From an uncultured Bacteroidia bacterium (GTDB taxonomy: Bacteria > Bacteroidota > Bacteroidia > Bacteroidales > UBA932), in NCBI GenBank assembly GCA_902798975.1, contig CADBYT010000024.1, positions 1-36,938 of the forward strand: DNA of 36,938 nt, given 5' to 3'. The number at the start of each line of letters is the position of its first letter. Positions within the stretch are counted from its first letter, which is position 1. A model generated the notes under the pieces. The model had not been told where the DNA came from, did not search any database, and was given only the letters and a program-made list of their open reading frames with translations. Below are positions 4,429-30,022 of this stretch, in pieces. A program made the translations under genes and the position numbers.

Positions 4429-4432
4429 ACGA

Positions 4433-4516
4433 GATTCGCCGGTCAAGCCGGCGAATGACGTGTAGCCGGTCTTGGGCGATGCCCCCTTCATAGGGGGCTC
4501 CGCGAAGCGGTGGGGG
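4433..4516. repeat. Intergenic palindromic repeats after dsbD
   Basis: A family A unit (4433-4460, arms ATTCGCCGG and CCGGCGAAT) lies 4 bases after the dsbD stop and is followed by a second palindrome cluster (GCCCCC/GGGGGC at 4481-4498, CCGC/GCGG at 4500-4510). No gene is visible between dsbD and punA; the spacer is made of these repeats. Confidence 0.85.
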
Positions 4517-10214: not shown

Positions 10215-11610
10215 AGTCGTCACCCTCGGCTGTTCGAAGAACACCGTCGATACCGAGCATCTGCTGGCGGCCCTGCCGGCGGATGCTTTCTCCATTGTGG
10301 ACGGCGAGCAGCCGTCCGATATCCTGCTGCTGAATACCTGCGGCTTCATCGGTGATGCCAAGGAGGAGTCTGTGAACGCTATCCTGGCGGCCGTGGAAGC
10401 GAAGAAGCGGGGCGAGGCAGGGGAGGTGGTCGTGTTCGGCTGCCTGTCGCAGCGCTATCCTGACGAGCTGCGGGCGGAGATTCCGGAGGTGGATGCCTGG
10501 TTTGGTGCGCGCGATCTCGCGCCGGTGCTGCGGTACCTCGGCGTGAAGCCCGGTCCGCTGACGGGGCGCTACATGCCGCATCCGCAGGGCTACGCCTACC
10601 TGAAGATTTCCGAGGGCTGCGACCGTCGCTGCTCCTATTGCGCCATTCCCTTCATCCGTGGGGCGCACCGCTCCGTGCCGATGGAGGAACTCATGGCGGA
10701 GGCGACTGAGCTGGCCGCGCGCGGCGTCAAGGAGCTGATTCTGATCGCGCAGGACACGACCTACTATGGCCTGGACCTGTATCACCGGCGCGCGCTGGGC
10801 GAGTTGCTGGAGAAGTTGTCTGCGATTCCCGGGATCGTGTGGATACGCATCCATTATTCCTATCCGGCTGATTTTCCGGAGGATGTGCTGCAGGCCATGG
10901 CGGACAATCCCAAGGTCTGCCGCTACCTGGACATTCCGCTGCAGCACATTGCAGACGGGATGCTGGAGCGGATGCACCGCCACGTGGACGGTGCCTGGAC
11001 GCGCCGGCTCATTGCCCGCCTGCGTGCAGAGGTGCCGGGCGTGGCGCTCCGTACCACGATGATCGTGGGGCATCCGGGCGAGACGGAAGCGGAGTTCGAA
11101 GAGCTGCTGGATTTCGTGCGCGAGGCACGTTTCGAGCGCCTGGGCGCTTTTACCTATTCGGAAGAGGATGGGACCTGGGGTGCGGAGCATCTCAAGGACG
11201 ATGTTCCCGAGGAGGTGAAGCGGGCGCGACTGGACCGCCTGATGGAGCTGCAGCGGGAGATCTCCCTGGCCTGCAATCAGGCTCGCGTCGGCTCTGAATG
11301 TCTCGTAATCGTTGACGATTTCCTCCCCGGCGCCGAAGTCTTCCAGACGGGGTCCCCGGAAATCTCTGATTTCTGGGGTGCAGAGACGGGCGGCCCTGAA
11401 TTATTTTCCGGACAAGTTTGCCGGAAAACCAATTCCGGCTCCGCTTTTTCGGCGCCGGGGATGGCAGTTTGCCGGAGCGAGTTCGAGAGTCCGGAGGTGG
11501 ACGGGGAGATTCTGCTGCGCAATCCTTCGCCGGACCTGCGGGTCGGCGACATGGTCCGCGTGCGCATCGTCGCCGCGGAGGATTACGATCTGATCGCGGA
11601 GGCTATGTAG
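10198..11610 (+). CDS. rimO: Ribosomal protein S12 methylthiotransferase RimO with a repeat insertion
   Basis: Radical SAM enzyme that adds a methylthio group to a conserved Asp of ribosomal protein S12. 470 residues: N-terminal methylthiotransferase domain with three cluster cysteines (C12, C48, C82), radical SAM core with CxxxCxxC at C141, C145, C148, and a C-terminal TRAM domain ending VRIVAAEDYDLIAEAM. Between the TRAM strand VGSECLVIVDD and SEFESPEVDGE lies an extra segment of about 45 residues (about 377-421) that matches nothing in the family and is encoded by a palindromic element (11325-11460). The frame stays open and all catalytic residues are present, so the enzyme may still function. 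Confidence 0.95.
   Translation: MARTLKVVTLGCSKNTVDTEHLLAALPADAFSIVDGEQPSDILLLNTCGFIGDAKEESVNAILAAVEAKKRGEAGEVVVFGCLSQRYPDELRAEIPEVDAWFGARDLAPVLRYLGVKPGPLTGRYMPHPQGYAYLKISEGCDRRCSYCAIPFIRGAHRSVPMEELMAEATELAARGVKELILIAQDTTYYGLDLYHRRALGELLEKLSAIPGIVWIRIHYSYPADFPEDVLQAMADNPKVCRYLDIPLQHIADGMLERMHRHVDGAWTRRLIARLRAEVPGVALRTTMIVGHPGETEAEFEELLDFVREARFERLGAFTYSEEDGTWGAEHLKDDVPEEVKRARLDRLMELQREISLACNQARVGSECLVIVDDFLPGAEVFQTGSPEISDFWGAETGGPELFSGQVCRKTNSGSAFSAPGMAVCRSEFESPEVDGEILLRNPSPDLRVGDMVRVRIVAAEDYDLIAEAM
11325..11460. repeat. Family C nested palindromic element inside rimO
   Basis: A 136-bp segment bounded by perfect 13-bp inverted repeats (CCCCGGCGCCGAA at 11325-11337, complement at 11448-11460). 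Inside are an 11-bp hairpin (11354-11378, one G:T pair) and the family C core hairpin (arms AATTATTTTCCGG and CCGGAAAACCAATT around loop ACAAGTTTG, 11399-11434). The same core occurs at 28282-28391 and 29588-29700. Confidence 0.88.
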
Positions 11611-11623
11611 ACGCCCCTCCGCA

Positions 11624-11654
11624 CGTCATTCGCCGGCTCCGACCGGCGAATCTC
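11624..11654. repeat. Family A palindromic repeat after rimO
   Basis: A family A unit in reverse orientation with arms ATTCGCCGG and CCGGCGAAT, 14 bases after the rimO stop. It could act as a 3' hairpin for the rimO operon, but it has no T run. Confidence 0.85.
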
Positions 11655-11665
11655 GACAAACCAGC

Positions 11666-11757
11666 AGGACCGGCCAGAAAAACATGGTGTTTTCTGGCCG
11701 GTCCCCTGTTTTTTGGGGGTACCTGGCAGGTTTTGCCGGGTTTTCCTGCCCGGTCTT
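11666..11757. repeat. Family D repeat, solo copy upstream of rnpB
   Basis: About 92 bp containing a perfect 15-bp hairpin (GGACCGGCCAGAAAA paired with TTTTCTGGCCGGTCC, 11667-11703), a CCCC/GGGG hairpin around a T6 loop, and a third imperfect hairpin (ACCTGGCAGG paired with CCTGCCCGGT). The reverse complement of 18199-18292, which abuts the RAYT gene, matches it with fewer than about ten differences. Confidence 0.88.
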
Positions 11758-11776
11758 TCCATTTGCAGAAAATTAC

Positions 11777-11784
11777 TATCTTTG
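11777..11784 (+). promoter_or_regulatory. -7 promoter box for rnpB (TATCTTTG)
   Basis: TATCTTTG matches TAnnTTTG and predicts transcription starting near 11791, where the RNase P RNA begins. It lies just downstream of the family D repeat. Confidence 0.7.
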
Positions 11785-11793
11785 CGGCATTGA

Positions 11794-12143
11794 AATAAAG
11801 GTGGGGCGATCTGCCGCCCGTAAGGGAGGAAAGTCCGGACAGGACAGGGCATCCCGCTGCGGAAAGCGCAGGTGGGGGTAACCTCACGCCAGTCGTAACA
11901 GAAAACAACCGCCAGCTGGTGCTAGATTCCCGGTCATGCCGGGAATGACGACCGGGGGGTAAGGGTGAAAACGCGGGGCAAGAGCCCACGACGCACGTCA
12001 GCGATGCCGTGCGGGTACGACACCGGGACCTGCAAGACCAAATATACTGGCAGACGAGGACGGCCCGTCCGATGCCAGGGGGTAGGTTGCGAAGATAAAT
12101 GGCAGAAAATCCGTGAACAGAAACCGGCTTACGGCTCCACCTT
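11794..12143 (+). ncRNA. rnpB: RNase P RNA, class A, with a palindromic insertion
   Basis: Catalytic RNA of RNase P, which trims tRNA 5' ends. Diagnostic segments are present in order: GAGGAAAGTCCGG (11826-11838), the AGAAAACAACCGCC region (11900-11913), GGTAAGGGTGAAA (11957-11969), and the 3' segment with GGGTAGGTTGC (12079-12090) and ACAGAAACCGGCTTA (12117-12131). AAAGGTGG (11797-11804) pairs with CCACCTTT (12137-12144) as helix P1, which fixes the ends. A family A palindrome (11925-11950) sits where the variable P12 helix is expected. The 3' end and following T run overlap the end of the convergent acyltransferase gene. Confidence 0.95.
11925..11950. repeat. Family A palindromic repeat inside rnpB
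   Basis: Arms ATTCCCGG and CCGGGAAT around a TCATG loop, followed by the family A tail GACG. Relative to the dsbD and intergenic copies, the changed stem pair is C:G instead of G:C, so pairing is kept. It falls in the P12 region of RNase P RNA, a peripheral helix that tolerates length change. Confidence 0.85.
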
Positions 12144-13259
12144 TTCTTTTTTGTTCTTCCGCTGCACCTTGCTGCGAAGCCGCTGCTCCGCCTCGCGCAT
12201 CTGTTCCTTCTGTCGATTCAGGAAGGCATTGAAGCGCTTCATCCGTTCGCGGGTGCTTTTGCGGGAGAGGGACTCCTCGATCTCGGGAAGTTCCCTGCGC
12301 GAACCGCGCTTCCAGATCTTCTGGGCCAGGTGCTTGAAATACGGATCCTTGTGGCGGTCGCGCTTGTCGGCATACATCTCGTCAAAGCCGATCAGGATAC
12401 CGGTCTCGAACGCGTCGAAGAACTCGTCGTTGATGCTGCACCCGAACATCTTCATCGTCGGGGAGGCATTCATGTAGGAATTGACCAGTGGCGGAATGCC
12501 GGTGCCGAGCCGCCGGACCGCATCCTTGAGGTTACGGTAGTCCTGCTTGAAATCGTCTTCCCGGAGGATCAGGTCCAGCAGGCGTCCGTCCGTGACGATG
12601 GGATAGGAATTCCACGGGCGTACCAGTTCATCCGGATCCGGGAAATGCTTCCAGAGGAAGTGCTCGATCAGGTCCAGCGCCGCCTTGTCGTAGTCCGGGT
12701 AGATGGTCATCTTGCCGAAATAGTACATCATGTCATGATGCTGGAGCATGATGGCCGCGAGGCCGTCCCAGAGGTTGTCCAGCGCGAAGATGGCCTTGGC
12801 TCCGGCCTTGGAGCTCTGGTACTCCGGCGCCACGAAGGAACGGCCGAGTTCGATCGTGTGCGGGAGGTAATCCCGGATGAACGTCTCCGAGAAGTGGAAC
12901 AGGTGCGAGGAGGCCAGGATGGGCTGCCCCTTCTCGTCCAGGTTCACGTCCGTTCCCAGGATGTAGCGGTAGCCGCCCAGGATGGCGGATGCCTCGGGAT
13001 CCCATATGATGAGCTGCCGGTAGAGCCGGTCGGGCAGGAAATCGAAATCGTCCAGGTCCACGGAATTGCCCGTCCCGCCCCCGCTGTCGCGGAATGCGAT
13101 CTCACGAAGCCGCCCGATCTCCTGCAGGACATTGGGTGCGTTATGGCAGTCGACCACGTAGATCTCGTTGTCGGACTTGTTGGTATCGCAGAGTTTTTTG
13201 TCAGGGGTGAGCTCTGCTTTGAGCAGGTCCACGCTCACCGGATCGATAATCTTTTCCAT
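12129..13259 (-). CDS. glsB: GlsB-like N-acyltransferase (glycine lipid synthesis)
   Basis: 376 residues. The core (about 45-200) is the GNAT/OlsB-type acyltransferase fold (REIAFRDSGGGTG, then an IILGGYRYILG-type strand, ELGRSFVAPEYQ acyl-donor loop). The family N-acylates an amino acid with a 3-hydroxyacyl group; in Bacteroides the homologue GlsB acts on glycine to start glycine and serine-glycine lipids. The Lys/Arg-rich C-terminal ~80 residues form a basic helical tail. It follows the PlsC-type gene by 3 bases, the known GlsA/GlsB pairing. The stop lies inside rnpB on the other strand. Confidence 0.88.
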   Translation of the reverse strand: MEKIIDPVSVDLLKAELTPDKKLCDTNKSDNEIYVVDCHNAPNVLQEIGRLREIAFRDSGGGTGNSVDLDDFDFLPDRLYRQLIIWDPEASAILGGYRYILGTDVNLDEKGQPILASSHLFHFSETFIRDYLPHTIELGRSFVAPEYQSSKAGAKAIFALDNLWDGLAAIMLQHHDMMYYFGKMTIYPDYDKAALDLIEHFLWKHFPDPDELVRPWNSYPIVTDGRLLDLILREDDFKQDYRNLKDAVRRLGTGIPPLVNSYMNASPTMKMFGCSINDEFFDAFETGILIGFDEMYADKRDRHKDPYFKHLAQKIWKRGSRRELPEIEESLSRKSTRERMKRFNAFLNRQKEQMREAEQRLRSKVQRKNKKEKVEP

Positions 13260-13262
13260 GGA

Positions 13263-14081
13263 CTATAGCTGATATACCTTCTCCCGGACCCGGGCAGCCC
13301 ATTCCAGGGGCTTACGGGTTTTGTCGAAGGTGGCAGCCGGAATCGGCTTGTCGAGGATGATCTTGAAGGTTTTGTGCTGGGAGTGGTACAAGGCGTCCGG
13401 CAGGAACAGCATCGGAATGTTGAACTTGGTCTTCAGGACCTTGCGGAACAGCCAGTCCATCCGGTAGAAGCGACCGGGGTTGCGGCCCACGAAGTGCACC
13501 GGCACCACGGGGCGGTCCGTCTCCACACTCTTGGTAACGAAGGTCTTGGTCCAGGGGAAATCCTGAACCGTGCCCTTGATCCGGCGGGAGCATACCCCGG
13601 CCGGGAAGATCATGATCTGTTCGGCCGAGCGGAATGCCTCGTCGAGCAGCTGCGGCAGGTTGCGCGCCTGTTCACCCGTCTTGTTGACGGGCATGCAGAG
13701 CGGCGCCAGCGGCTTGAGGAACATCAGGAAATCATTCACCGGCATGCGTACCGAGCCGAAATTGCGCGAGATGAGCGCGCAGAGGGCCAGACCGTCTGCG
13801 GCGCCCAGGGGATGATTGGAAGCGAAGGTGTAGCGGCTGCCGTCCTTCGGGACGTTTTCGAGCCCTTCCACTTCGATCTTGATGTCCATGTATTGCAGCG
13901 CGTCCTCGCAGAATTCCACGCCGTCATAGCCGCGCGCCAGAATCTCATTCAGCCAGTCCTGATGAATGAGCCGTTTGAAGAAATTGACGACAAAACGGGG
14001 GACCTTTTTCCTCCCCTTGAACTTGCTGGCAATTACGCCGTCCAAGTCGATCAGACGGTCTTTCCCCGGGTCTGCGGACAT
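13263..14081 (-). CDS. glsA: GlsA-like O-acyltransferase (PlsC family)
   Basis: 272 residues of the glycerol-phosphate acyltransferase superfamily: the H(x)4-5D catalytic motif is seen as SNHPLGAADG near residue 95, and the acceptor motif as IFPAGVCSRR near 165. In Bacteroides GlsA adds the second acyl chain to N-acyl glycine made by GlsB; the adjacent GlsB-like gene supports that role over phosphatidate synthesis. It starts 5 bases after the lipoprotein gene and ends 3 bases before glsB, so all four minus-strand genes from the radical SAM gene on look like one transcript. Confidence 0.87.
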   Translation of the reverse strand: MSADPGKDRLIDLDGVIASKFKGRKKVPRFVVNFFKRLIHQDWLNEILARGYDGVEFCEDALQYMDIKIEVEGLENVPKDGSRYTFASNHPLGAADGLALCALISRNFGSVRMPVNDFLMFLKPLAPLCMPVNKTGEQARNLPQLLDEAFRSAEQIMIFPAGVCSRRIKGTVQDFPWTKTFVTKSVETDRPVVPVHFVGRNPGRFYRMDWLFRKVLKTKFNIPMLFLPDALYHSQHKTFKIILDKPIPAATFDKTRKPLEWAARVREKVYQL

Positions 14082-14086
14082 GGAGA

Positions 14087-14395
14087 CTATTTCTTTTCGA
14101 TATCGCGGTACGGGACGTTGGGCACGGCATAAAGGAGCTTGACGCGCTCCGGCTCAGTCCGGCCTTCCACCACCGTGGCGGATCCTCCCTGGTCGGCCTT
14201 CTGCTTCTCGGGATTCTTGGCATCATCCTCGAGCATCTTCTGGAGGGTCTCCTCCACCAGGGCTTTCTGTTGGGCTTCGAACGCTTCCCGTTCGCGCTGT
14301 GCACGCGCCTCGCGCGCTTCGCGGAGCGATGCGCAGGAGGTAAATCCGAGCAGGGTCAGGACACCTGCGAGAATGTATCTGATACCTTTCTTCAT
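14087..14395 (-). CDS. Small lipoprotein paired with a radical SAM enzyme
   Basis: 102 residues with a signal peptide and lipobox (LLGFTSC, Cys at 21), then a highly charged helix or coiled coil (about 24-70) and a short C-terminal segment LLYAVPNVPYRDIEKK. It starts 10 bases after the radical SAM gene ends. Bacteroidota have a described rSAM/lipoprotein pairing in which the lipoprotein carries an MYGTP-like tyrosine/proline segment; LYAVPNVPY is reminiscent of that, but membership is inferred from position and this short stretch only. It could be a modification substrate or an unrelated envelope protein. Confidence 0.75.
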   Translation of the reverse strand: MKKGIRYILAGVLTLLGFTSCASLREAREARAQREREAFEAQQKALVEETLQKMLEDDAKNPEKQKADQGGSATVVEGRTEPERVKLLYAVPNVPYRDIEKK

Positions 14396-14405
14396 AGAGA
14401 CAAAG

Positions 14406-15506: not shown

Positions 15507-15547
15507 TTTTATATCTTTTTGGTCTATCCGTGCAAGAAAAGCTGCCA

Positions 15548-15564
15548 GGCAAAAGGTAACTTTG
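15548..15564 (+). promoter_or_regulatory. Overlapping divergent -7 boxes, carboxylesterase and rSAM operon
   Basis: TAACTTTG (15557-15564, plus) fits TAnnTTTG and points to the carboxylesterase. On the minus strand the overlapping sequence reads TACCTTTTG, a near match pointing to the radical SAM operon. The two would compete for the same site. Confidence 0.5.
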
Positions 15565-15607
15565 TGATGCTTGTACGAAAACTTTCAACCAATTCTAATT
15601 TAGGTAT

Positions 15608-17130
15608 ATGAAAAAAGCACTTCTTCTGTTGTCCGTGCTCGCCCTCTTCGGGTGCAGCAAGACTGTCAACACCCCGGTCCTCACCATCGAGGGAGGCCAG
15701 GTGCAAGGTGTCACCACGGAAATCCCCGGCGTTCTCGTCTATCGGGGCATCCCGTACGCCGCTCCGCCTATCGGCGAGAATCGTTGGAAAGAGCCGCAGC
15801 CGGTCGTTCCCTGGCAGGGCGTGAAGCTCTGCGACAAATTCGGCCACCCCAGCTATCAGGCCATCCAGTATCCCGGCGGTTACTTCACCGAGTGGGGTTA
15901 CGGCGACGAGGCTCCCTACAGCGAGGACTGCCTCTACCTGAACGTCTGGACCAAGGCTTCCGGCCAGCCCGAGAAGAAACTCCCCGTGGCTCTCTGGATC
16001 CCGAGAAGAAACTCCCCGTGGCTCTCTGGATCCATGGTGGCGGTTATCGTGAAGGCTGGGGCTCCGAGCCCGAGTTCGATGCCAAGGCCTGGGGCGCCAA
16101 GGACGTGGTCCTCGTGTCCATCAACTACCGCCTCGGTGTGTTCGGCTTCCTGACCCATCCTGAGCTCTCCGCCGAGAGCCCGCACGGTGTGTCCGGCAAC
16201 TATGGTATCCTCGACCAGATCGAGGCCCTGAAGTGGATCAAGAAGAATATCGCCCAGTTCGGCGGCGATCCTGACAACGTCATGATCTTCGGCCAGAGCG
16301 CTGGCGCCGGCAGCGTGAAGACCATCTGCGAGTCCCCGCTGGCCCGCGGTCTCTTCCACAAGGCCGTCATCATGTCCGGCGGCGGCATCACTGTTCCGCA
16401 GCCGGCTCCCGCTCCTTCAGCCGCTCCCGCCGGCCGTCCCGCCGGTATGCCCGCCATGCCTGCCGGCATGATGCGCATGTTCCGTCCGACCAACATCAAG
16501 GAGGCCGAGCAGGCCTGCAAGGAGATCCTCGACTGGGCCGGCCTGACCGACCTCAAGAAGATGCGCGCCGCCTCCACCGAGACGCTCTACGCCCTCAGCA
16601 CCATCTACAACGGCGCCAGCGGCAAATTCGGTTCCCTCACCGGCATGCCGATGGTGGACGGTTATGTGAGCAAGGAGAGCTTTGACGATGCAGCCAAGGA
16701 CGGCTCGCTCGCCGATGTCCCGTACATGATCGGCTACACCCTCAACGATATGGGCAACATGTCCGGCGGTATCGCCGCTTTCTGCCTCAACCGTGAGGAG
16801 AAGGGCGCCAAGGCCTGGGCTTACGAGTTCGCCCGTCCGCTGCCTGACGACGGTTCTCATCCGGAAGTGACCGCCCGCCTGAAGGGTGCGTTCCACTCCT
16901 CCGACCTGTGGTTCGTCTTCAAGTCCCTCGAACACTGCTGGCGTCCCTGGACCCAGGGCGACTGGGATCTCTCCGAGAAGATGCTGACCGCCTGGACGAA
17001 CTTCGCCAAGAACAGCGATCCGGGCCTCGGCTGGGAGCCTTACACCCAGGCGAACAACAAGTTCATGCTCTTCAAGCTGGACGCCTCCGACAAGGAGAAC
17101 TCCGAGGTCGGCGACCCCATCGTTCCGTAA
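15608..17130 (+). CDS. Type-B carboxylesterase lipoprotein, frame broken by a 32-bp tandem duplication
   Basis: Alpha/beta hydrolase of the carboxylesterase/para-nitrobenzyl esterase family, hydrolysing carboxylic esters, here probably in the periplasm. The start MKKALLLLSVLALFGCSK gives a lipobox. Seen are YRGIPYAAPP, EDCLYLNVW, the oxyanion segment IHGGGYREGW, and the nucleophile motif FGQSAGAGS (DNA near 16290-16316). A 32-bp unit is repeated exactly in tandem (15969-16000 and 16001-16032), shifting the frame: the first part ends at 16153 in its frame, the rest continues to 17130 in another. Removing one copy restores 496 residues. Either a real mutation or an assembly error. Confidence 0.88.
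15969..16032 (+). repeat. Exact 32-bp tandem duplication in the carboxylesterase
   Basis: Positions 15969-16000 and 16001-16032 are identical. The unit encodes EKKLPVALWI just before the oxyanion-hole motif. As 32 is not a multiple of 3, it breaks the frame. Confidence 0.97.
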
Positions 17131-17158
17131 TTGGTTAGTTAACCTCCATATTGCAACA

Positions 17159-17200
17159 AGAACCCCGGCTGCTCCACTGCAACCGGGGTTCTGATTTATT
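17159..17200 (+). terminator. Likely terminator after the carboxylesterase
   Basis: AGAACCCCGG (17159-17168) pairs with CCGGGGTTCT (17183-17192), followed by a T-rich GATTTATT. A 10-bp stem with a 14-base loop, 28 bases after the stop. Confidence 0.75.
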
Positions 17201-17309
17201 AGCCGAAGCGACGTAAAATATTACTTTCTATGAAAAAAATCACAATTTGTGACGAGCGGGACGAATAACCTTGCTATTCCCGCAAGCCGAAAGTACCTTG
17301 CTTAAAAAA

Positions 17310-18200
17310 ATGAAAACCTCGGTTTCCCCTCATTATTACCATTGCGCGACCAAAGGCTTTGACCATTGTGTCCTTTTTGCTGATACCAGGGAGTTCATTG
17401 CCGGAATGAACCGCATCGCGCTCTGCACAGCAAAACTAAAAGAGAGCTTTCCTGTGATAGTTGTTGCTTTCTGTCTGATGGATAATCATCTACATGTAAT
17501 TCTATATGGCAGCCGCGAGGCCTGCCTGAAATGGATGGCCCTCTACCATAAACTAACCATGATGTGGCAGCGCAGCCATCGGGAGACGGCTCCGATTGAT
17601 GAGCCGTGGGAATACGACGCCTGGCAGGTGTATGATGAAGAAGATTTGAAACAGAAAATAGCCTATGTTTTCCGGAATCCGACGGTTGCAAGAATGGGGT
17701 TTACGCCTCAGGGATATCGCTGGAGTTCAGCCAGGTTGGTGTTTTCGGACTACGGTGTGCTTCCGGAGGGTGCACGGAGAATCGGGTCGCTGTCTTCTTA
17801 TGAGTTCCGCAACACTTTCGAGTCCAAGATTGTACTCCCCGAGGAATGGCATCTTTTGCCGGATGGGCTGATCTGGCCGGGGAGCTATACGGACTTCAAA
17901 CGTGTCGAGAGGTTGTTCGGACATCCAAGGAACTATTTGTTCTATCTGAACCAAAATGTCGAGCCCGAGATTAATCAGCAGATGTACGGGGAAACCATTT
18001 CCCTTCCGGATCAAGATGTTGCCCGGATTACCCGGGAGATTGCCCAAAGACAGTTTGGTGTTAATGATATAGCCAGGTTGGGTTTACCTGACCGTATTCA
18101 GCTCTGCCGTCTTGTCAAAAAGGAGACGAAGGCATCTTTGAAGCAACTGGCCCGGGTGCTCCACCTTCCCTTGGCCGACCTGAAGAAGATTTTTGAGTAA
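17310..18200 (+). CDS. REP-associated tyrosine transposase (RAYT, Y1/HUH family)
   Basis: 296-residue single-strand DNA transposase of the IS200-like Y1 superfamily. The HUH metal motif is DNHLHVIL (H60, H62), and the catalytic tyrosine is Y119 in AYVFRNPTVARMGF, the RAYT form of the Y..NP motif, followed by GYRWSSA. The long C-terminal part (about 150-296) ends in a helical domain like those of RAYTs that bind repeat DNA. RAYTs mobilise short hairpin repeats rather than themselves. A family D hairpin repeat abuts its stop codon and a near copy lies at 11666-11757. The frame is open from 17271; ATG 17310 is preferred because it gives a standard RAYT N-terminus. Base composition is lower in GC than its neighbours, consistent with transfer. 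Confidence 0.9.
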   Translation: MKTSVSPHYYHCATKGFDHCVLFADTREFIAGMNRIALCTAKLKESFPVIVVAFCLMDNHLHVILYGSREACLKWMALYHKLTMMWQRSHRETAPIDEPWEYDAWQVYDEEDLKQKIAYVFRNPTVARMGFTPQGYRWSSARLVFSDYGVLPEGARRIGSLSSYEFRNTFESKIVLPEEWHLLPDGLIWPGSYTDFKRVERLFGHPRNYLFYLNQNVEPEINQQMYGETISLPDQDVARITREIAQRQFGVNDIARLGLPDRIQLCRLVKKETKASLKQLARVLHLPLADLKKIFE

Positions 18201-18292
18201 AACCGGGCAGAAAAACCCAGCGAAACCTGCCAGGTACCCCCAAAAAACAGGGGGCCGGCCAGAAAACACCGTGGTTTTCTGGCCGGTCCTAC
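18199..18292. repeat. Family D repeat abutting the RAYT gene
   Basis: Begins at the RAYT stop codon and, read on the minus strand, is nearly identical to 11666-11757. On that strand the first hairpin (GACCGGCCAGAAAA arm) is preceded by GTAG (plus-strand CTAC at 18289-18292), the kind of tetranucleotide that RAYTs recognise beside REP hairpins. It also fills the space between the convergent RAYT and GH3 genes. Confidence 0.88.
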
Positions 18293-18303
18293 CTATTTTG
18301 ATG

Positions 18304-20919: not shown

Positions 20920-22061
20920 AATGTATTGATTGGTATTTCTTTGGCAGGGCGGAGGGGATCGTTGCTGAAGACCGTCAGGCGCAGGTCAGTCGGGGCGGTG
21001 CCGGAAGGCTTCGACCGTCCGGGCATAATAGAATCCCCGCTTCGCGAAAATGCCCGTCCGGCCGAACCTTCCGGCGCCGCTGAGAGTTTCAGGGTCAGCG
21101 TCTGTCCAGGGGGGATGCGGAGAGATTCGCCGGTCGGAGCCGGCGAATGACGGTTGGTCGGAGCCGGCGAATGACGATATCCTTCAGGCAATTCGATGGC
21201 GTAGATGATCAGGTCGGAGCGGCCGTCGTTGGAGATCTCCAGGGTGCCGCGCGGAGTGCGCGACAGCAGGGACCGGCGGAGCTGCACGGCGGCGTTGCGC
21301 AGCCGCGGGGCGTCCGGGGATTCCGGCGCCTGGGTCAGGCAGAGGCCGCTCACGGGCATTTCCCGCAGGGCGGGAACACCGTCCGGAGTGAGGCGCAGCG
21401 AAGCGCGCAGCGTGGCGAAGCAGTTCGGGTCGGCCGGCGTGTCGCACCAGACTTCCACGCGGGACTCTTCTCCCGGCGCGAGCGTGTCGGGACAGCGTAC
21501 GCGGAAATGCGACCCCGCCAGGCCCTCGACGCGCAGGCGCATGGGCCGCTCAGAGGCATTGGCAATGAAGAAGACCTTGCCGCTCTCCCGTCCGCGCTCG
21601 AGGTAGCCGAAACGGACGTCCGCGCGGCTGGCATAGAGCCCTTCGGCGAGCACCACAGGGTAGCGCTCCTGGATGCTGCGGTCGGCCGGGAATACGTCCG
21701 CGCTGACGCTCAGCACGCCCAGGCTGTGGTTGCCCGAGGCCTGGATCTCGATGGTGCGGATCACGGGACCGGACGCGCCGGCAGGCGTGAAACGGACCTC
21801 CACCGTGGCGGACTGCCCGGGGGCGATGTCCGTGCGGGGGAGCGTGGCGCTGATGCAGGAGCAGCCGGGAATGGCGCGCGTGAGGCGCAACGGGCGGTCT
21901 CCGCCGTTGAAGACGGTAAAGGCGTGGCTGACTGCGCCGTCGGCTTCGCGAATGGAGCCGAAGTCCCATTCGCGGCAGTCAAAGACCGCCGGTCCCTCTT
22001 GTGCAAGAAGGATCGGGGCGGTCAGCAGGAAGCCGAAGAGCAGCAGCGTGCCTCTTCCCAT
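20916..22061 (-). CDS. DUF1573 protein with two palindrome-derived insertions
   Basis: 381 residues with a signal peptide and a DUF1573 domain (about 25-110: WDFGSIREADGAVSHAFTVFN, then the IPGCSCISA cysteines), an Ig-like fold common in exported Bacteroidota proteins, role unknown. A second similar beta domain follows. The C-terminal part is invaded: residues about 295-312 (HSPAPT repeated twice) come from a tandem family A repeat (21124-21176), and residues about 327-355 come from a 31-bp-arm palindrome (20995-21080). The frame resumes in TDLRLTVFSNDPLRP. It lies one base after the CE1 gene and overlaps GH3 by 4 bases. Confidence 0.85.
   Translation of the reverse strand: MGRGTLLLFGFLLTAPILLAQEGPAVFDCREWDFGSIREADGAVSHAFTVFNGGDRPLRLTRAIPGCSCISATLPRTDIAPGQSATVEVRFTPAGASGPVIRTIEIQASGNHSLGVLSVSADVFPADRSIQERYPVVLAEGLYASRADVRFGYLERGRESGKVFFIANASERPMRLRVEGLAGSHFRVRCPDTLAPGEESRVEVWCDTPADPNCFATLRASLRLTPDGVPALREMPVSGLCLTQAPESPDAPRLRNAAVQLRRSLLSRTPRGTLEISNDGRSDLIIYAIELPEGYRHSPAPTNRHSPAPTGESLRIPPGQTLTLKLSAAPEGSAGRAFSRSGDSIMPGRSKPSGTAPTDLRLTVFSNDPLRPAKEIPINTL
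20995..21080. repeat. Long palindrome inside the DUF1573 gene
   Basis: Left arm 20995-21026 and right arm 21050-21080 are imperfect inverted repeats of about 31 bp (shared blocks GCCGGAAGG, GGGCAT) around a 23-base spacer. It is in frame and without stops on the coding strand. No second copy was found in the window. Confidence 0.8.
21124..21176. repeat. Family A repeat with partial tandem copy inside the DUF1573 gene
   Basis: A full family A unit (21124-21152, arms ATTCGCCGG and CCGGCGAAT) is followed by a second copy of its 3' half (21156-21176), a 24-base, in-frame step that repeats HSPAPT in the protein. Confidence 0.87.
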
Positions 22062-22062
22062 C

Positions 22063-23238: not shown

Positions 23239-23250
23239 CGTATCGTGTCT

Positions 23251-26200
23251 TTATTCTTGGAACAGGAGAGGGAGGGATTCGTCGAGCCAGTACTTGGCGT
23301 TCATCCAGGTGTGGCCGAACTTGTCGTCGGTGAACACCTTTACGTTGTTGATGCCCTTGCTGTCGAGGAAATCCATGTATTCCTTGGCGTTGCCGTAGAG
23401 GAAGTCGTCCGTGCCCACGCCGAGCCAGAAGAGGTGGAGCTGCTTGTTGAGCGCCTCGGCGTCGTCGTACACGTTCGGCAGGTCCATGCTCGTGAAGGAG
23501 CTGTAGGAGCACAGCAGAGGGCCTGGTTGCCGCCGCGGGAGAAGCCGCCGATGGCGCGGTGGTCGCGGTCGTTGATGGTGCGGTAGTTCTTCTCCACGAA
23601 GGGCAGCAGGTCGTGCATGACGTCGCGGGTGAAGCTGTGGCCGTTGAGGTTGCCCTCGCCCGGCTTGAAGTACTTGGACGGGTTGCCGTAGGGGAGGACG
23701 ATGATCATCTCCTTGGCCTTGCCCTCGGCGATGAGGTTGTCGAGGATGAGGTTCATGCGGCCGACCTTGAAGTACACTTCCTCGGTGTCGGTGGTGCCGC
23801 TGATCAGGTAGAAGACAGGATATTTCTTATTCTTGTTCTTGTCGTACATCGGCGGGGTGTAGACGATGGCGTTGGCCCAGGTGTTCAGGGTGCCGGACCA
23901 GTAGTTGACATAGTCCACGCTGCCGTGCGGCACATCCTTGAGGGCATGGAGCAGGGGCTCGCCCGTGCCGCGGACGTCCACGAGGCTGTTCTTGAAGGTC
24001 TCGTTCGGGAACCATTCGGGGTTCTGCGGGTCCATGACCTGGATGCCGTCCACGTCGAAGCTGTACGGGTACATGTCCGGAGCCACGGGGCCGAGGGTGA
24101 CGGTCCAGACGCCGTTCGGACCCTTGGTCATCTCCTGTGTGCCGGCGAACTGGGTGTTCACCTTGACGGACTTGGCGTTGCGGTCGGCATAGTTGAAGGT
24201 GATGGTGTTGTCCGGGTTGACAATCGGGGAAGAAACGCCGCCGCCCATCTGGGGGGCGCCCATCGCGCCGCCCATCATACCGGGCCAGCCGCCGCGACGG
24301 GGCTGGCGACGGATTTCCAGAATGACGCAGCCGGTCTCGGGGCCGCGCTCAACCTTCATCCACATTTCGGCCGTAACCTGCGTGCCGGTACCCATCTCGG
24401 TAAGTTTGGCTTCGATGCCCGGTTCGCCCTCGCCGACGAGGTCGTCCTTCGTGAGCTCACCGGCCCAAAGGACGGGACCATAGCTGTGGTTGATGACCCA
24501 GTAGCCCGGATCGATGCCCTCGAAGACGTAGCGGTCCACGCCTTCCTTGATCATCACGCGCTTGGTCTGGGCGTCTCCGCCGTAACCGCCGCCACGCTGG
24601 CCGGGCGTGCGCTTGTTGATCTCGACCTCGCCGCCGGTGCCGTTGATTTCCTCGGTCTTCGTGCGGAAGAAGTCCAGGCCGGAATCGAAGGACTCGACCT
24701 CGAAGCAGTACTCGGACTCGGTGTTGAGGCTGTGCAGCTTGAAGGAATTCTGATCGTAGACGATGTAGCTGTTGTAGAGCTTGTTCGGCTCGATGCCGTA
24801 GCGGATAATGTAGCCGTCGGCGCCCGGGACGGGATCCCAGAGGAGCTCGGCTTCGCGGCGGTCTTCCGGATTGCGGACAACCTTGACACCGGCGAGCTTG
24901 ACGGAACCGGCGGACGCCGGGTTGCCGAAGACGCGCAGGTCCTTGATGCTGAACTTGGCGCCGTCATGGCACTGGCGGGTGTTGGTGACCTTCACGAAGC
25001 GGGCCTGGGCGGGCTTGGAGAGCTGCGTGTAGTCGTGGTGCAGGTCCAGCTTGTTGGCGGGCTTGTCGATGACCGTGGTCCAGTTGTTTCCGTCCACGGA
25101 CACTTCCACCTTGAAGCACTGGTAGAATTCGGGGTTGGCGGGCGCGGGACCGCCGAAGCCGCCGAATCCGCCGCGTGCGGGCTGCTCGGCGCCGATGTGG
25201 TCCCAGTTGCACTGGATGGCGTAGATGTCGGCCACCTTGCCGAGGTCGACCTGATACCATTCGCCCGGATCACCGGTCTCGGCGGCCCAGTTGGTCAGGA
25301 AGTTCTCGTCCACGGCGTTCTCCGGGACGAAGTTCTCGAAGGTGGAGGAGACAGTGACTTTCTTCTTGAGGGAGAGGAGCTTCCAGCCGGTCCAGTTGTG
25401 GTCGACCGCGTCGGTGCGGGTGCCCGGCCAGAACTGCGGGTAGTCGCCGAATTCTTCGTTGGAGTGCATCACGCCCTCCTCGTCGACGGCCGTCGGGAAG
25501 ATGGCGAGCTCGGAGCCGCGGCCTGCGCCGCCGTAGCTGGACGGGATCATGCAGATGGTCCAGAGCTGGCCGTTCTTGTCATGGAAGGTGCTGCCGTGGC
25601 CGGCGCCCACCGCGAAGCCCGTGGTCTTGAATGTCAGCGGGTTGTGCTGCGAGTAGGTGAAGGGGCCCATGGGGCTGTCGGACACGTAGACACCGTGCGA
25701 GTAGGAGAGGAGCTCCAGACCGATGGCGGCATACTGGAGATAGTATTTGCCGTTGTGCTTGGTCATCCAGGGACCTTCGATCCAGGGATATTCCTCTTCG
25801 AAGTAATCGCGGCGCCCGTTGAAGATGGAGTAGATCACGTCGTCATGGGTGCGCTTCTCGAAGCCGTGCTTCTTGTAGTCGCTGAAGAAGAGGACCTCGG
25901 GTCCGGCGATCTCCTTGAAGGTTTTCTTGTCCAGCTCCACGACCTTGAAAGGCATGAGCTGGGACCAGCCGTAGTAGAGATAGAGCCGGCCGTCGTCATC
26001 GACGAACATGTTGGCGTCGCCGTAGCGGTCGCTGTCGAAGGTGCCGACCTGCTCCCAGGTACCCGCCTTGGGGTCGATGGCTTTGTAAACATTCTTGTTG
26101 TTCATGGAGCATCCGTACAGGCTGCCGTCCATCTCCACGACGGAGACCACGCCGCCCGGATAGTTCGGGGCGTCCACGTAGGTCCAGTTCTTGAAGTCGG

Positions 26201-26408
26201 GAGAGTACCAGTAACCCTTGCGGTGCGAGACGAAGAGGAAGTAGTCGTTCTGGTACACCAGCACGACGGGCTCTCCGCCCCGGTAGGAACGCTCGCCGGG
26301 AACGACCAGGTCGAGCGGGTTGCAGAAGGTGTCCTGTCCGTGCAGGGCAAGGGACAGGAACAGGGTGACGGCCGTGATTACGACGCGTCTGAGCGTTTTG
26401 GTGTGCAT
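23251..26408 (-). CDS. GH43-discoidin-FN3-CE1 fusion enzyme, frameshifted near the CE1 active site
   Basis: About 1050 residues from ATG 26408 (MHTKTLRR, signal peptide). Order: GH43 five-blade propeller (about 25-365) with acid Glu in WIEGPW and Asp in GDANMFVDDDG; F5/8 discoidin domain (about 370-520); FN3-like module (about 530-620); a beta module (about 650-730); a CBM48-like module (about 750-830); a CE1 esterase domain with nucleophile GGFSRGG near 957. At about 23505-23515 the frame shifts by one base: the sequence needed for the catalytic His (FGHTWMN) continues to the stop at 23251 in the next frame. Where GH43 usually has an Asp-Pro base, this protein has GGEPVV. It combines debranching or xylosidase and ester removal. 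Confidence 0.9.
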
Positions 26409-26437
26409 ATGCGGAATGAATTTGGTTTTCCTAGTTT

Positions 26438-26445
26438 CAAAGATA
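26438..26445 (-). promoter_or_regulatory. -7 promoter box for the GH43/CE1/DUF1573/GH3 operon
   Basis: Minus strand TATCTTTG, 29 bases before the GH43 fusion ATG, matches TAnnTTTG; a TTTG lies 14 bases upstream of it. Close spacing of the next three genes suggests this serves the whole operon. Confidence 0.65.
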
Positions 26446-26511
26446 CGCACACCCGCGCGCAAAAGCAATAGCCCTCGGCGCAAAAACTTTCGTTTTCCGT
26501 TCAGCGGATAA

Positions 26512-28218
26512 CTAGTTCAGGGCGTCGGGGTCGGTGTAGCGGATGGTGACGCCGTAGTCGCGGATGTAGCGGTTGAGGCCGTTGGCACTCTCCTCCACGC
26601 CCTTGCGCTTGCCGGCGAGGAGTTCCTGCGACATCTTCTTCTCATCCAGCACACGCTGCAGCGTCTCCACGTTCGGGCCGCCATAGTGGCCCGGGAAGAG
26701 CTTCTCGATGCCGTTCTTCTGCATGTAGTCCGCCGTGCGGGTGCAGGTCTCGATCAGGCCGCTGAAGGACGGGACGAAAAGCAGCAGGTTCGTGGAGCCG
26801 AAGGCGTCGCCGCTGAAGCCGTAGTGATTCGCCTTGTCGAAGAAGGTGATGGAGCCGGAGGTATGGCCCGGGGTGTGGAGCACCTCGATCTGGCGGCCGC
26901 CGAGGTCGATGACATCGCCGTCATTCAACTCGTGGATGGTGCCCTGATAGCCTTCGCCGTCGCGCGCGATCATCGGAATGTCCGCCGGGTGGATCCAGAC
27001 TTCCGGGAAGCAGACGATGCCGCCGACATGGTCGCCGTGGCCGTGCGTGAGGGCCACCATGACCGGCTTGTCGGTCAGCGCTGCCACGGCCTTGTCAAGG
27101 TGCGGCATGTAGGCGCCGGCGTCAATGACCAGGGCCTTGTCATTCCCCTCGACGACATAGACGGACTCGTTGTAGACCATATATCCGTTGCCCTCCCAGG
27201 TGTGTTCGTCGATCTGACGGAAGACAATGTAGGGATCGCGGTAGACGAACTTCTCGCTGTAGCGCTGGCGGAATTGCTCCGCCTGCTCCGCGCTCCAGGT
27301 GATGATGGCGTTGCCATGGCGGAAATAGGTGTCCAGGCCCGGGCGGCCGAGGTTGGACGGCTCCGTGGCGGCGGTGCCGGACTCAATCTCGTCGCAAAGC
27401 TGCTTCATCTCGCGCAGGTATTCCATGCCGAGCTCGCGGCCTTCGGGGAGCTTGAGCCAGTCTTTCTGCCAGTAGTGGCCGCCGTAGATTTGCAGGCGGT
27501 CCTGATCTACGCCGTGTTCCTCCAGGACTTCGATCAGGTACGGCACGGCGGAGACATAGCTGTTGAATGCATCCGCGTTGAAGAGCCACACGCCGTGGCC
27601 GGAGCCGACGGCATCGCCCGTGAAGAGCAGACTCTGGTCCTTGAGCAGGAAAACCATCGAGCCGGCGGTGTGGCCGGGCACTTCAATGGCTTCCACCTGC
27701 ATGCCGCCGAGGTCGAAGATTTCACCCTCGTTGAAGAAGCGCTGCCGGTCCGCGGGGAAGCGGTCCGCCATCCGGTAGAAATCCCGCTCGGGCAGGGCGA
27801 ATTCCACGCTCGGATCTTCCGAGAAAGCGGGAATCATGCCCGTATGGTCGCCGTGGTTGTGGGTGAAGGTGATGGTGAGCGGCTTGCCGCCCGCCCGCTC
27901 CCAGACGATGGCGCGCAGCGACTCTGCCGCGTCGTCCGCCCAGGTAATGGGGTTGGAAAGGTCAATGAGCAGGGCCTTCTCCTTGCCGACGAGGAGGTAG
28001 ATGTCGGAGCAGTTGTTGAAGTGGGTCAGCTTGCCGTCGGCGTCGAATGTTTCGCCGGCGGGGTTGGTGCTATTGTAGTCCTGGATGTGCCAGACGTTCT
28101 TGCCGATGACGGATACGGTGTAGGGACCGAGTTCAACGTCCTGGACGGGGCCGGCGCAGGCGGCCAGCAGGGTGGCGGCTGCGGCAAGGGCGGCGCGGAG
28201 AAGGATTCTGATTTGCAT
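26512..28218 (-). CDS. Lipoprotein with two metallo-beta-lactamase-fold domains
   Basis: 568 residues; signal peptide with lipobox LLAAC (Cys 21). Two complete MBL domains lie in tandem. The first has THNHGDH (119-125), PGHTAGS, FTGDAV and YGGHYW; the second has THGHGDH near 392, PGHTSGS, FSGDAF and PGHYGG. Both keep the HxHxDH metal-binding set. Substrate unknown: the superfamily includes glyoxalase II, phosphodiesterases and lactonases, and nothing here decides between them. The two halves suggest an old internal duplication. It has its own promoter and lies between the xylan operon and the acyltransferase operon. Confidence 0.88.
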   Translation of the reverse strand: MQIRILLRAALAAAATLLAACAGPVQDVELGPYTVSVIGKNVWHIQDYNSTNPAGETFDADGKLTHFNNCSDIYLLVGKEKALLIDLSNPITWADDAAESLRAIVWERAGGKPLTITFTHNHGDHTGMIPAFSEDPSVEFALPERDFYRMADRFPADRQRFFNEGEIFDLGGMQVEAIEVPGHTAGSMVFLLKDQSLLFTGDAVGSGHGVWLFNADAFNSYVSAVPYLIEVLEEHGVDQDRLQIYGGHYWQKDWLKLPEGRELGMEYLREMKQLCDEIESGTAATEPSNLGRPGLDTYFRHGNAIITWSAEQAEQFRQRYSEKFVYRDPYIVFRQIDEHTWEGNGYMVYNESVYVVEGNDKALVIDAGAYMPHLDKAVAALTDKPVMVALTHGHGDHVGGIVCFPEVWIHPADIPMIARDGEGYQGTIHELNDGDVIDLGGRQIEVLHTPGHTSGSITFFDKANHYGFSGDAFGSTNLLLFVPSFSGLIETCTRTADYMQKNGIEKLFPGHYGGPNVETLQRVLDEKKMSQELLAGKRKGVEESANGLNRYIRDYGVTIRYTDPDALN

Positions 28219-28242
28219 ACGGAATAATGGTTATTGTTGAAT

Positions 28243-28250
28243 CAAAGATA
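28243..28250 (-). promoter_or_regulatory. -7 promoter box for the double MBL lipoprotein
   Basis: Minus strand TATCTTTG, 24 bases before the ATG, a match to TAnnTTTG. Confidence 0.65.
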
Positions 28251-28281
28251 CTAACAGCATTTCGAAAATGCAAATCCCCGG

Positions 28282-28391
28282 GCCGGCAGGTGCTCTGCGT
28301 CGGCGTTGTGGAGGGCGGAGCGGCAATTGGTTTTTCGGCAAACTTGTCCGAAAAATAATTGCCGGCCGCCCGCGAAGGAGCACCTGCCGGC
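28282..28391. repeat. Family C nested palindromic element, intergenic
   Basis: 110 bp bounded by perfect 14-bp inverted repeats (GCCGGCAGGTGCTC at 28282-28295 and its complement at 28378-28391). Inside, read on the minus strand, is the family C core: AATTATTTTTCGG, loop ACAAGTTTG, then CCGAAAAACCAATT, followed by CCGCTCCGCCCTCCAC. It fills the gap between the MBOAT stop and the MBL promoter and could end MBOAT transcription. Confidence 0.88.
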
Positions 28392-28396
28392 AAATA

Positions 28397-30022
28397 CTAG
28401 AACTGATAGTAGATGAAGGGCTGGATATCCCCGCTGCGGAGCTGGATGACCAGCTGGACCGCGATAAGGAAGACCAGGAAGATGACGATCCAGGGTAGCC
28501 GGGTGAAGCGGGCCTGCAGGCGGTTGTACGCCCGCGGCGGGATGAGCAGGCCGGCGGCCGCCACGGCCAGCACCCCGCACCAGAGCTTGCGGGCTGCCCA
28601 GAAGGGGGCTGCGTAGGCGAAATCGAATTCGGTGAAAATGCGGCGGAAGATCTCGCCCACATCCTGCAGGCTCCCGGCGCGGAAGAACACCCAGCATGCC
28701 ATCACGAAGACCATCGTCAGCAGCCAGCTGAGTGCCTTGACCGGCCAGCTGTCGGGAATCTTCTTGAGCCAGCCGCGGCAGAGCTTGTGCACCGCGAGGC
28801 CGGCGCCGTGCAGCGCGCCCCAGATGACGAACATCCAGGTGGAACCGTGCCAGAGTCCCGCTACGACCATGGTCAGGAAATTGTTGAGCAGGGTGCGTGC
28901 CTGCCCCTTGCGATTGCCGCCCAGGGGGATGTAGACATAGTCCCGGAACCAGGTGGAGAGCGAGATGTGCCAGCGCCGCCAGAATTCCGTCAGGTTCAGC
29001 GAACGGTACGGATAGAGGAAGTTGTCGTCGAGGCGGAATCCCATCAGCGAAGCGATACCGATGGAGAGGTCGCTGTAGCCGGAGAAATCGAGGTAAATCT
29101 GCATCGTGTAGCCGAGCACCGCCATCAGCAGCTCGTAGCCGGAATAGGAAACCGGACTGTCGAATGCGAGGTTGTTGTAGACGGCCAGGTAGTCGGCCAG
29201 CACGCCCTTCTTCAGGAGGCCGCAGATGATGAGCCAGAGGCCCAGGCGCAGCTCGTGGCGCGTAGCAGGCTCCGCCCGGCGGATCTGCGGCAGGAAGCGT
29301 CCGGCGCGGGTAATCGGGCCGGCGAGCAGCAGCGGGAAGAACGAAAGATAGAAGCAGAATTCCAGGAAATCCGGCCGCCCGTCATACTTCCCGCGATACA
29401 CGTCCACGGAATAGCTGATGGCCTGGAAGGTATAGAACGAAATGCCGATTGGCAGCACGATCTGCCCGACCTCCCAATTGCTCCCCGTCAGCGCGTTCCA
29501 GATCCCCGCAAAAAATCCGCTGTACTTGAAATACACCAGCGCCGCCAGATCCAGCAACACGATTACCGCCAAAATCCATTTGCTGCCAGCCCTGCGGGCG
29601 CTCCCCAGCGGTCGGCCGGAAATTATTTTTCGGCTTCCTGAGCCGAAAAACCAATTTCCGCTCCGCCCTCCACAACGCTCCCGCTCAGCGTCCGCGGGCT
29701 TGCCGTGCGAGGGCGTTGTAGAAGGCGGGCGGCTGTTCGTCGTGGACGGGCCATTTTGTAGGCCCGGACAGGACGAAGTTGCCGACGCCGTGTCGGAGGA
29801 GGCAGGCCCCTTGGACTGGCGAAGAAGTTCTGTAAAGAAATAGTTGACGGCGGCCGTGGCAGGCAACAGCAACATCAGCCAGCCGTTGGCCTGCCAGAAG
29901 AAAAAGAGGTCGAAGGCGAGCACCCAGAGGAGCATCGCCGTACGCGACCACTTTTTGACAAAGATATAGATCAGGAAAAAGGCGCAGAAAGCCGCCCAGA
30001 ACCCCATGCTGATGAAATTCAT
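28397..30022 (-). CDS. MBOAT O-acyltransferase (AlgI/DltB-like) with a 75-residue repeat insertion
   Basis: 541-residue polytopic membrane protein that passes acyl groups, usually acetyl, across the membrane for polysaccharide O-acetylation. Family features: LAALVYFKYSGFF, FFPLLLAGPITRA, FRDYVYIPLGGNRKG and the catalytic His in LWHGSTWMFVIWGALHG near 405. Residues about 72-146 (DNA 29585-29809) are an extra polar, Ser/Pro/Gly-rich segment made of palindromic repeats, placed in the loop between helices where relatives run straight through. Without it the length is the usual ~465. It follows the SGNH gene by 6 bases, a common pairing. Confidence 0.92.
   Translation of the reverse strand: MNFISMGFWAAFCAFFLIYIFVKKWSRTAMLLWVLAFDLFFFWQANGWLMLLLPATAAVNYFFTELLRQSKGPASSDTASATSSCPGLQNGPSTTNSRPPSTTPSHGKPADAERERCGGRSGNWFFGSGSRKIISGRPLGSARRAGSKWILAVIVLLDLAALVYFKYSGFFAGIWNALTGSNWEVGQIVLPIGISFYTFQAISYSVDVYRGKYDGRPDFLEFCFYLSFFPLLLAGPITRAGRFLPQIRRAEPATRHELRLGLWLIICGLLKKGVLADYLAVYNNLAFDSPVSYSGYELLMAVLGYTMQIYLDFSGYSDLSIGIASLMGFRLDDNFLYPYRSLNLTEFWRRWHISLSTWFRDYVYIPLGGNRKGQARTLLNNFLTMVVAGLWHGSTWMFVIWGALHGAGLAVHKLCRGWLKKIPDSWPVKALSWLLTMVFVMACWVFFRAGSLQDVGEIFRRIFTEFDFAYAAPFWAARKLWCGVLAVAAAGLLIPPRAYNRLQARFTRLPWIVIFLVFLIAVQLVIQLRSGDIQPFIYYQF
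29588..29700. repeat. Family C nested palindromic element inside the MBOAT gene
   Basis: 113 bp with imperfect outer inverted repeats (29588-29611 and 29681-29700) around the family C core (AATTATTTTTCGG, loop CTTCCTGAG, CCGAAAAACCAATT), followed by the same CCGCTCCGCCCTCCAC seen at the intergenic copy. The gene reads it in the opposite orientation from rimO, yet the frame is open in both. Confidence 0.88.
29727..29785. repeat. Second palindrome in the MBOAT insertion
   Basis: An imperfect hairpin (GGACGGGCC region paired with GGCCCGG region, extended by CGGCTGTTCGTC paired with GACGAAGTTGCCG) lies just beyond the family C element and completes the 75-codon insertion. Confidence 0.6.

Follow-up and report, generated by a model that had tools for sequence, protein, structure and literature searches.

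A dispersed palindromic hairpin, here termed family C, is a real, mobile and structured repeat that works like the Rickettsia palindromic elements (RPEs) and the repetitive extragenic palindromic (REP) sequences, without the sequence tags of either. Three copies lie in the stretch of DNA analysed here, a window of 36,938 nucleotides (positions 1 to 36,938 of contig CADBYT010000024.1, assembly GCA_902798975.1) from an uncultured Bacteroidia bacterium of the order Bacteroidales (UBA932). The element measures about 75–110 nt, with a long form of about 120 nt, and is most probably a non-autonomous mobile hairpin of the REP/RPE kind that proteins can accommodate if the insertion is in frame and falls in a flexible loop. 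A mobile structured repeat had been proposed in an original prediction made from the window alone, and the proposal is supported by the number of copies, by covariation and by empty sites in relatives.

Copies and structure of family C

The original prediction placed one copy in rimO, one between genes and one in a gene of the MBOAT family; all three are present, and the letters of their cores were rechecked. The first (11324–11461, plus strand, covariance model E of 2.0e-15) lies in sense orientation within rimO (10198–11610, plus strand, 470 aa, NCBIfam TIGR01125), with outer arms at 11324–11337 and 11448–11461 and a core stem formed by 11399–11411 and 11421–11434. The intergenic copy (28282–28391, minus strand, core 28325–28360, E of 7.1e-23) is directly downstream of the MBOAT-family gene (28397–30022, minus strand, 541 aa, NCBIfam TIGR04091 with an E of 3e-51, under the cut-off of that model). 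The third copy (29588–29700, plus strand, E of 1.5e-19) is antisense within the MBOAT gene, its core (29621–29656) pairing 29621–29633 with 29643–29656. Both genic frames (470 and 541 aa) stay open across the element in these opposite orientations, as had been claimed. The predicted paired changes are likewise found: the pair next to AATT is G:C in rimO, C:G in the intergenic copy and A:T in the MBOAT copy, and deeper in the arm rimO has C:G where the other copies have T:A. The claim that every copy is nested in a second inverted repeat holds for the perfect 14-mers of the rimO and intergenic copies (28282–28295 and 28378–28391 in the latter), but not for the approximately 20-bp repeat ascribed to the MBOAT copy, where the best perfect in-register stem is 4 bp. 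A partial C-like fragment (29696–29732, minus strand), inverted and comprising only the 3′ tail and an arm by eye against the consensus, adjoins the MBOAT copy.

The source genome (G000) is a 2.09 Mb Bacteroidales metagenome-assembled genome (MAG), 71% complete. With the MBOAT copy as a BLAST query it yields 49 matches, although in some cases a single copy is hit in fragments or again on the opposite strand. Searched with a covariance model made from 35 short copies, it yields 90 raw matches at E ≤ 1; once opposite-strand echoes were removed, 54 distinct places at E ≤ 0.004 were counted by hand, more than chance would give and in line with the many copies that had been expected. Three of these (L100, L105 and L106) belong to a divergent form with the 3′ tail in common. 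The long form, with approximately 42 extra internal nucleotides, accounts for 8 of 44 copies (a 45th, a tail-only match, was set aside); L036, which is among these eight, differs in its interior. Across 150 genomes, matches occur in 14 (the source and 13 of 149 relatives), all within one genus of 60 genomes. Ten of the 13 relatives match strongly (best E ≤ 1.4e-8); the values in G010, G054 and G085 are marginal (0.001–0.005 per genome), so these matches may be chance. Since 30 candidates per genome were scored, copy counts in relatives are lower bounds. Of the 80 AtpG relatives listed, most come from Bacteroidales MAGs, in many cases of ruminant-gut origin; three carry the name Candidatus Cryptobacteroides, with 54% identity for the nearest of them, so that a genus name and a rumen origin for the source are guesses. 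Two exact patterns of family C had no match in viral contigs, and a distant blastn search with the MBOAT copy had none in plasmid or phage collections; spread by phage or plasmid was rejected on these grounds. Identity with a known RNA family was rejected as well: at gathering score, Rfam found only RNase P in the window and nothing on family C, two matches at E ≤ 1 in six further loci fall far under the gathering score and off family C, and the sole match in L294 is a tRNA.

The core stem is AATT-A-TTTTTCG(G) paired with CCGAAAAA-CC-AATT. Its bulge, A versus CC, is nearly invariant, with CC in 34 of 35 copies of one alignment (A2) and 28 of 28 of a cross-species alignment (A3); the facing A is kept in 35 of 35 (A2) and 27 of 28 (A3). 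Many copies, in G028 as well, carry an asymmetric 3′ tail, CNNCRACGCNNNCGCRC; it is absent from a TCTTCC subtype comprising the copies of rimO and PrmC, L037 and L038. CGTC occurs somewhere in 4 of 35 aligned copies and is not in the consensus; GTAG occurs in 12 of 35, in 11 of these in the apical loop. Across species the AT-rich apical stem keeps its sequence and the basal stem changes; as A3 is inconsistent in the basal stem, it was not used for counting pairs.

RNAalifold predicts 20 pairs, seven of them with double changes, and over 23 named pairs 96.5% of 802 cells pair. Column shuffles reached the observed covariation score in 0 of 500 trials, and the observed number of further pair types in 12 of 500. 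Against a tree-based null, in which an equal number of changes is placed at random on a FastTree tree, the summed mutual information is 2.53 versus 0.31 (s.d. 0.14), a value reached in 0 of 500 simulations, and covariation therefore exceeds the phylogenetic expectation, as had been proposed. Three pairs (14–55, 16–53 and 26–42) are each reached in 0 of 300 trials under this null, with 4–7 changes per side; pairs 8–62, 11–59, 15–54, 19–50 and 29–39 are singly weak (5–20 of 300). The earlier statement that the fold and not the sequence persists stands in so far as covariation exceeds the null, but not for the apical AT-rich stem, where the sequence is conserved too.

Part of this covariation could derive from template-switch repair of palindromes without selection. 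That such correction of imperfect palindromes during replication, rather than selection for the fold, produced the covariation as a whole is doubtful, though worth weighing: copies can have perfect outer arms whose sequences are unrelated to one another, as one-step templated repair would yield, but blind repair should erase the A/CC mismatch, which is nearly invariant, and the sequence of the apical stem is kept across species.

Genic copies and their alleles in relatives

In the source genome, nine genes with homology support hold twelve in-frame copies between them: two in AtpG, three in MetH and one each in TrpC, PrmC, a HemW-like protein (slightly under its NCBIfam cut-off), RimO, MBOAT, a radical SAM/SPASM protein and a family 2 glycosyltransferase. 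The divergent form occurs in frames with domains of DapF, of a family 4 glycosyltransferase and of dihydroorotate dehydrogenase electron transfer. Pfam was run on 40 of 66 spanning-frame rows (at least 200 aa, repeats included), with no family in 28; in L021 and L038 a family is present but the element precedes the domain. Copies without homology support were counted as non-genic. A strict coding-potential test, which called only 11 of 54 copies genic because 240-nt flanks are noisy near other repeats and gene ends, was dropped in favour of homology.

Sense copies share a reading frame to a large extent. Among 16 sense genic copies of the source genome and its relatives (L172 left out), 13 use one frame, whose peptide is GNYFSDKFAEKPISAPPSTTP; several of the 13 are perhaps inherited, and we estimate that about 8 of 11 independent insertion events used it. 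This frame is open in 23 of 36 short copies, and the other two sense frames in 31 and 28. When all six frames are counted, 147 of 216 are open, versus a fraction of 0.363 in mononucleotide shuffles. In an AlphaFold model of AtpG (35 sequences), 201 of 332 residues have a pLDDT of at least 90, while ten-residue blocks over the inserts (61–110 and 221–260) average 43–72 and are mostly coil; the model thus predicts a confident core with low-confidence coil at both inserts.

Six genes (prmC, trpC, metH, atpG, rimO and MBOAT) were compared with relatives, and at all six, as well as at two intergenic sites, empty or differently filled alleles are found, bearing out the expectation of empty sites. 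The prmC site is filled in sense in G000 and G058, in different frames, is inverted in G065 and lacks family C in G080, G008 and G015, a pattern that implies either several insertions or a single one that was afterwards inverted and altered by indels. The trpC site is filled in G000, carries a scar-like GLTRRADG-TPSTTPAHA in G058, holds another palindrome (ILRSAQDD) in G080 and is empty in G008. In metH of G000, the first of the three copies is common to G058, and the second and third sites lack family C in 10 of 10 aligned relatives, G058 included. A CHPERSEGS segment, which may derive from a dispersed palindrome, occupies another MetH loop in G058 and G080 (L237 and L238).

Two loops of AtpG are hot spots, with family C in G000 (both), L157 (both), L158, L178 and L169. 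The atpG genes of L159 and L168 resemble deletion scars, other atpG loops hold unrelated palindromes (for example IPDQVGDD, VIPGLTRNL, ILRQAQDD and FAGLTGESP), and the copy of L172 sits past the atpG stop codon. In the second AtpG loop of L161, from another species, a different hairpin is nested in frame within the loop of a palindrome of family B, described below. In the window genes, the variable stretch of rimO exceeds its counterpart in the closest relative, G080, by approximately 111 nt, and the MBOAT linker spans approximately 85–90 aa in the source versus approximately 8 aa in L153–L155 and approximately 60 aa in G080 (L151).

The intergenic sites are C25 sites 1 and 2. At site 1, a stop codon and the conserved stretch that follows it are separated in the source genome by approximately 144 nt (family C, its arms and one family B copy), and in relatives by 9 bp (G080) or 13–14 bp (G058, G065 and G008), with no palindrome and no arm. 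At site 2, two CGTC-type palindromes are present in G080 where the source genome has family C.

Proposed mechanism, alternatives and candidate transposase

These observations suggest a life cycle for an element made of a core stem with an A/CC bulge, a varying basal stem, the usual tail and often a copy-specific outer stem. Family C would spread within one Bacteroidales genus, probably as a folded single strand, and most copies settle downstream of genes. Some lie in genes with the frame kept and stop-free, in flexible loops as far as tested, and the enzymes would thereby gain translated inserts of approximately 30–50 aa, mostly in one reading frame; later deletion of the hairpin would leave in-frame scars. 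A REP-associated tyrosine transposase (RAYT) of the HUH type, reading the bulge and the tail, would be the mover. The copy number, the covariation, the empty sites, the open in-frame insertions, the scar-like alleles and, for AtpG, the position in a loop are observed, whereas translation, movement as a single strand and the role of the transposase are inferred from them.

Several points weigh against this account. The genic copies were chosen by an open spanning frame of at least 200 aa, which favours in-frame cases, and the 12 in the source genome divide into 7 in the favoured frame, 2 in another sense frame and 3 in antisense. L101 and L102, whose flanks are coding in the same frame with a stop between, fall between different genes, and Pfam found no family on the flanks of L036 and L039. 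Conservation of CC is partly circular, because copies were found with models built on CC, and every genome used is a MAG or other assembly. No target-site duplication was noticed by eye at C25 site 1, the sole clean empty site compared, and no systematic search for one was made. With regard to the mover, no transposition event was seen and family C has no enzyme linked to it: the two Y1_Tnp matches of the source genome score 23.3–23.5 bits, barely above the Pfam cut-off of 23, their score with the RAYT model is 38–40 bits, half its cut-off of 80, and other palindromes also adjoin Y1 genes. In the seven C-positive genomes checked, 3 of the 22 Y1 genes have a copy nearby among the family C matches listed.

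It is accordingly only tentatively that a Y1/HUH transposase of the source genome is put forward as the enzyme that moves family C. Both Y1 proteins carry the HUH motif by eye and match the NCBIfam REP-associated tyrosine transposase with E of 1e-9 to 1e-10. Both lie beside long C copies (approximately 0.2 kb on C13 and 0.1 kb on C5), and one of two Y1 genes of G080 is approximately 0.25 kb from a copy. Among the matches listed, by contrast, the Y1 genes of G065 (2), G028 (6), G015 (3) and G040 (5) have no C neighbour, and one of the two in G058 has its copy 2 kb away. The C13 gene has a different palindrome on either side, so its link to family C is tentative. The E. coli TnpA_REP requires a stem bulge in its REP (PMC8266576); the A/CC bulge may be a parallel to this requirement, not a proof. 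Separately, a large palindrome, GATGCGACCCCC..GGGGGTCGCATC, stands on either side of a RAYT-like gene in L288 (1376–1460 and 2463–2545), a candidate REPtron with its own repeat, and in L030 a similar palindrome comes after the long C copy.

The outer arms raise the question of where the flanking palindrome comes from. Arms of at least 6 bp in register occur in 20 of 33 short copies (control 18%) and of at least 8 bp in 11 of 33 (control 4%), the test leaving out the long copies, a single tail-only match and, from the TCTTCC subtype, rimO, L037 and L038. In 14 of the 20 copies with at least 6 bp the right arm begins 8 nt past the tail motif. Without the register constraint the signal at 8 bp or more is weaker, with 10 of 34 copies in the source genome versus 5.5% in the control; in relatives it is 11 of 42 versus 3.7%. 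The arm sequence varies from copy to copy, and in several copies it is that of family B. In G080 (L290:1380–1485), a C copy stands at the end of a short tandem array of GGCTTGCCATCCCCA-like units, as if outer arm and spacer had been amplified.

Family B has the CGTC tag and an 8–9 bp stem starting with AT (CGTC-ATTCGCCGG...CCGGCGAAT) that define the CGTC-REP type in PMC3733652; its loops have 5 nt (CTTGA) or 6 nt (CTCCGA) and its tail is CTC, where that definition gives a 4–5 nt loop and a CCA-like tail. Copies in the window are at 11624–11654 (plus strand), 21122–21152 (minus strand, inverted and 100% complementary to the first), 3914–3943, 3965–3994 and 4431–4460. The exact pattern occurs 60 times in the source genome, 27 in G080, 5 in G008, 2 in G058 and once in G015, and has no match in five other genomes. 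A family A palindrome of approximately 92 nt (GGACCGGCCAGAAAA...) at 11666–11757, with an inverted, 92% complementary copy at 18199–18290, immediately follows a family B copy, and an RNase P RNA of class A (11798–12147) lies downstream of rimO and of these palindromes. The window also holds a perfect tandem duplication of a 32-nt unit (15968–16031).

Insertion of family C into pre-existing palindromes, with the outer arms belonging to the target, is unlikely as a general explanation. It would account for the copies with family B arms, for which such an origin is possible; 60 perfect-stem family B copies without family C are available in the source genome, REPs within palindromes are reported elsewhere (PMC3733652), and L161 has another hairpin within a family B loop. 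The empty alleles of C25 site 1 in G080, G058, G065 and G008 argue against it, having neither arm nor palindrome; at this one clean site the arms arrived with the element and not from the target, and neither a pre-existing palindrome nor an inverted target duplication is supported as the general origin of the arms. In addition, a solo GCTTGCC hairpin was not found in approximately 299 kb (redundant) of source-genome DNA, and the arm of the window's intergenic copy recurs almost unchanged beside an atpG copy.

Non-genic copies tend to lie downstream of genes. Among 39 copies outside supported genes (51 copies examined), 30 have a coding left flank, with the left-flank gene directed into the canonical strand in 25 cases and away from it in 5 (p = 3e-4); on the right flank the numbers are 13 versus 5 (p = 0.10). 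This bias favours an RNA element at gene 3′ ends, kept chiefly for transcript termination or stabilization. We nevertheless regard that explanation as improbable: the patchy presence within the genus, the occurrence of genic copies in both orientations and the two unrelated palindromes of G080 at C25 site 2 suit a selfish element better. An RNA role may have been acquired after insertion. Finally, it is very improbable that inserts are cut from the message or bypassed by the ribosome, as with intron-like or bypassing hairpins, leaving normal proteins: hairpins within conserved domains (PrmC, TrpC and the HemW-like protein) do look disruptive, but all 12 supported genic copies, though chosen by open frames, are stop-free and in frame as removal would not need, frame use is biased, and the scar-like trpC and atpG alleles are likewise in frame.

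Relation to known repeats and meaning

As a mobile hairpin tolerated in proteins, family C is closest in behaviour to RPEs, palindromic repeats of approximately 150 bp, many of which lie in frame in unrelated genes and encode an extra segment (PMC10969869 and PMC3733652); Rickettsia is the best-known case of such inserts. A palindrome of approximately 100–150 bp in frame in unrelated genes is found here in 12 copies and 9 genes. The two differ in phylum, and the CGTC reported at one end of the R. conorii RPE (PMC3733652) is not a conserved end of family C. Family C further differs in its copy-varying outer stem, nearly invariant bulge and usual 3′ tail, and its protein loops are also used by other palindrome families.

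The CGTC-REP superfamily (Di Nocera 2013) is represented by family B, whose sequence supplies the outer arms in some C copies. PMC3733652 reports this superfamily from Bacteroidetes and within genes, and intragenic palindromes from R. conorii, O. terrae, Thauera and others. CGTC-REPs have an 8–9 bp stem and a 4–5 nt loop; family C exceeds them in length, has two stems and lacks a conserved tag. Family C resembles GTAG REPs and REPINs in its conserved stem bulge and one-sided conserved unpaired motif, and RAYT-like genes are present in the source genome; it differs in lacking GTAG at the stem base, and the link to RAYTs is one of adjacency. Miniature inverted-repeat transposable elements (MITEs) and enterobacterial repetitive intergenic consensus (ERIC) sequences are likewise short and non-autonomous and sometimes form in-frame gene fusions (PMC2759123), but the terminal repeats of MITEs are common to copies, whereas the outermost repeats of family C differ by copy. 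Judged by titles and abstract openings, no paper listed in searches of open-licence literature names family C.

Insertion-driven protein evolution was described in a 2024 review as striking in Rickettsia and conceivable in other prokaryotes (PMC10969869). An RPE-like family is now found in Bacteroidales, within atpG, metH, prmC, trpC and rimO, among others. The annotation of MAGs may accordingly include protein loops derived from repeats. A broader and speculative extension is that several unrelated hairpin families, family C included, repeatedly colonize and recolonize the same loops of essential proteins throughout the genus in gut Bacteroidales, with the translatable frame selected as peptide and the fold, with its bulge and tail, selected for RAYT-type movement; if true, repeated loop colonization would be a natural and ongoing machine that produces new protein segments. 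As empty, filled, inverted and scar-like alleles coexist in one genus, the insertion of protein segments, their tolerance and their loss can be studied directly there.

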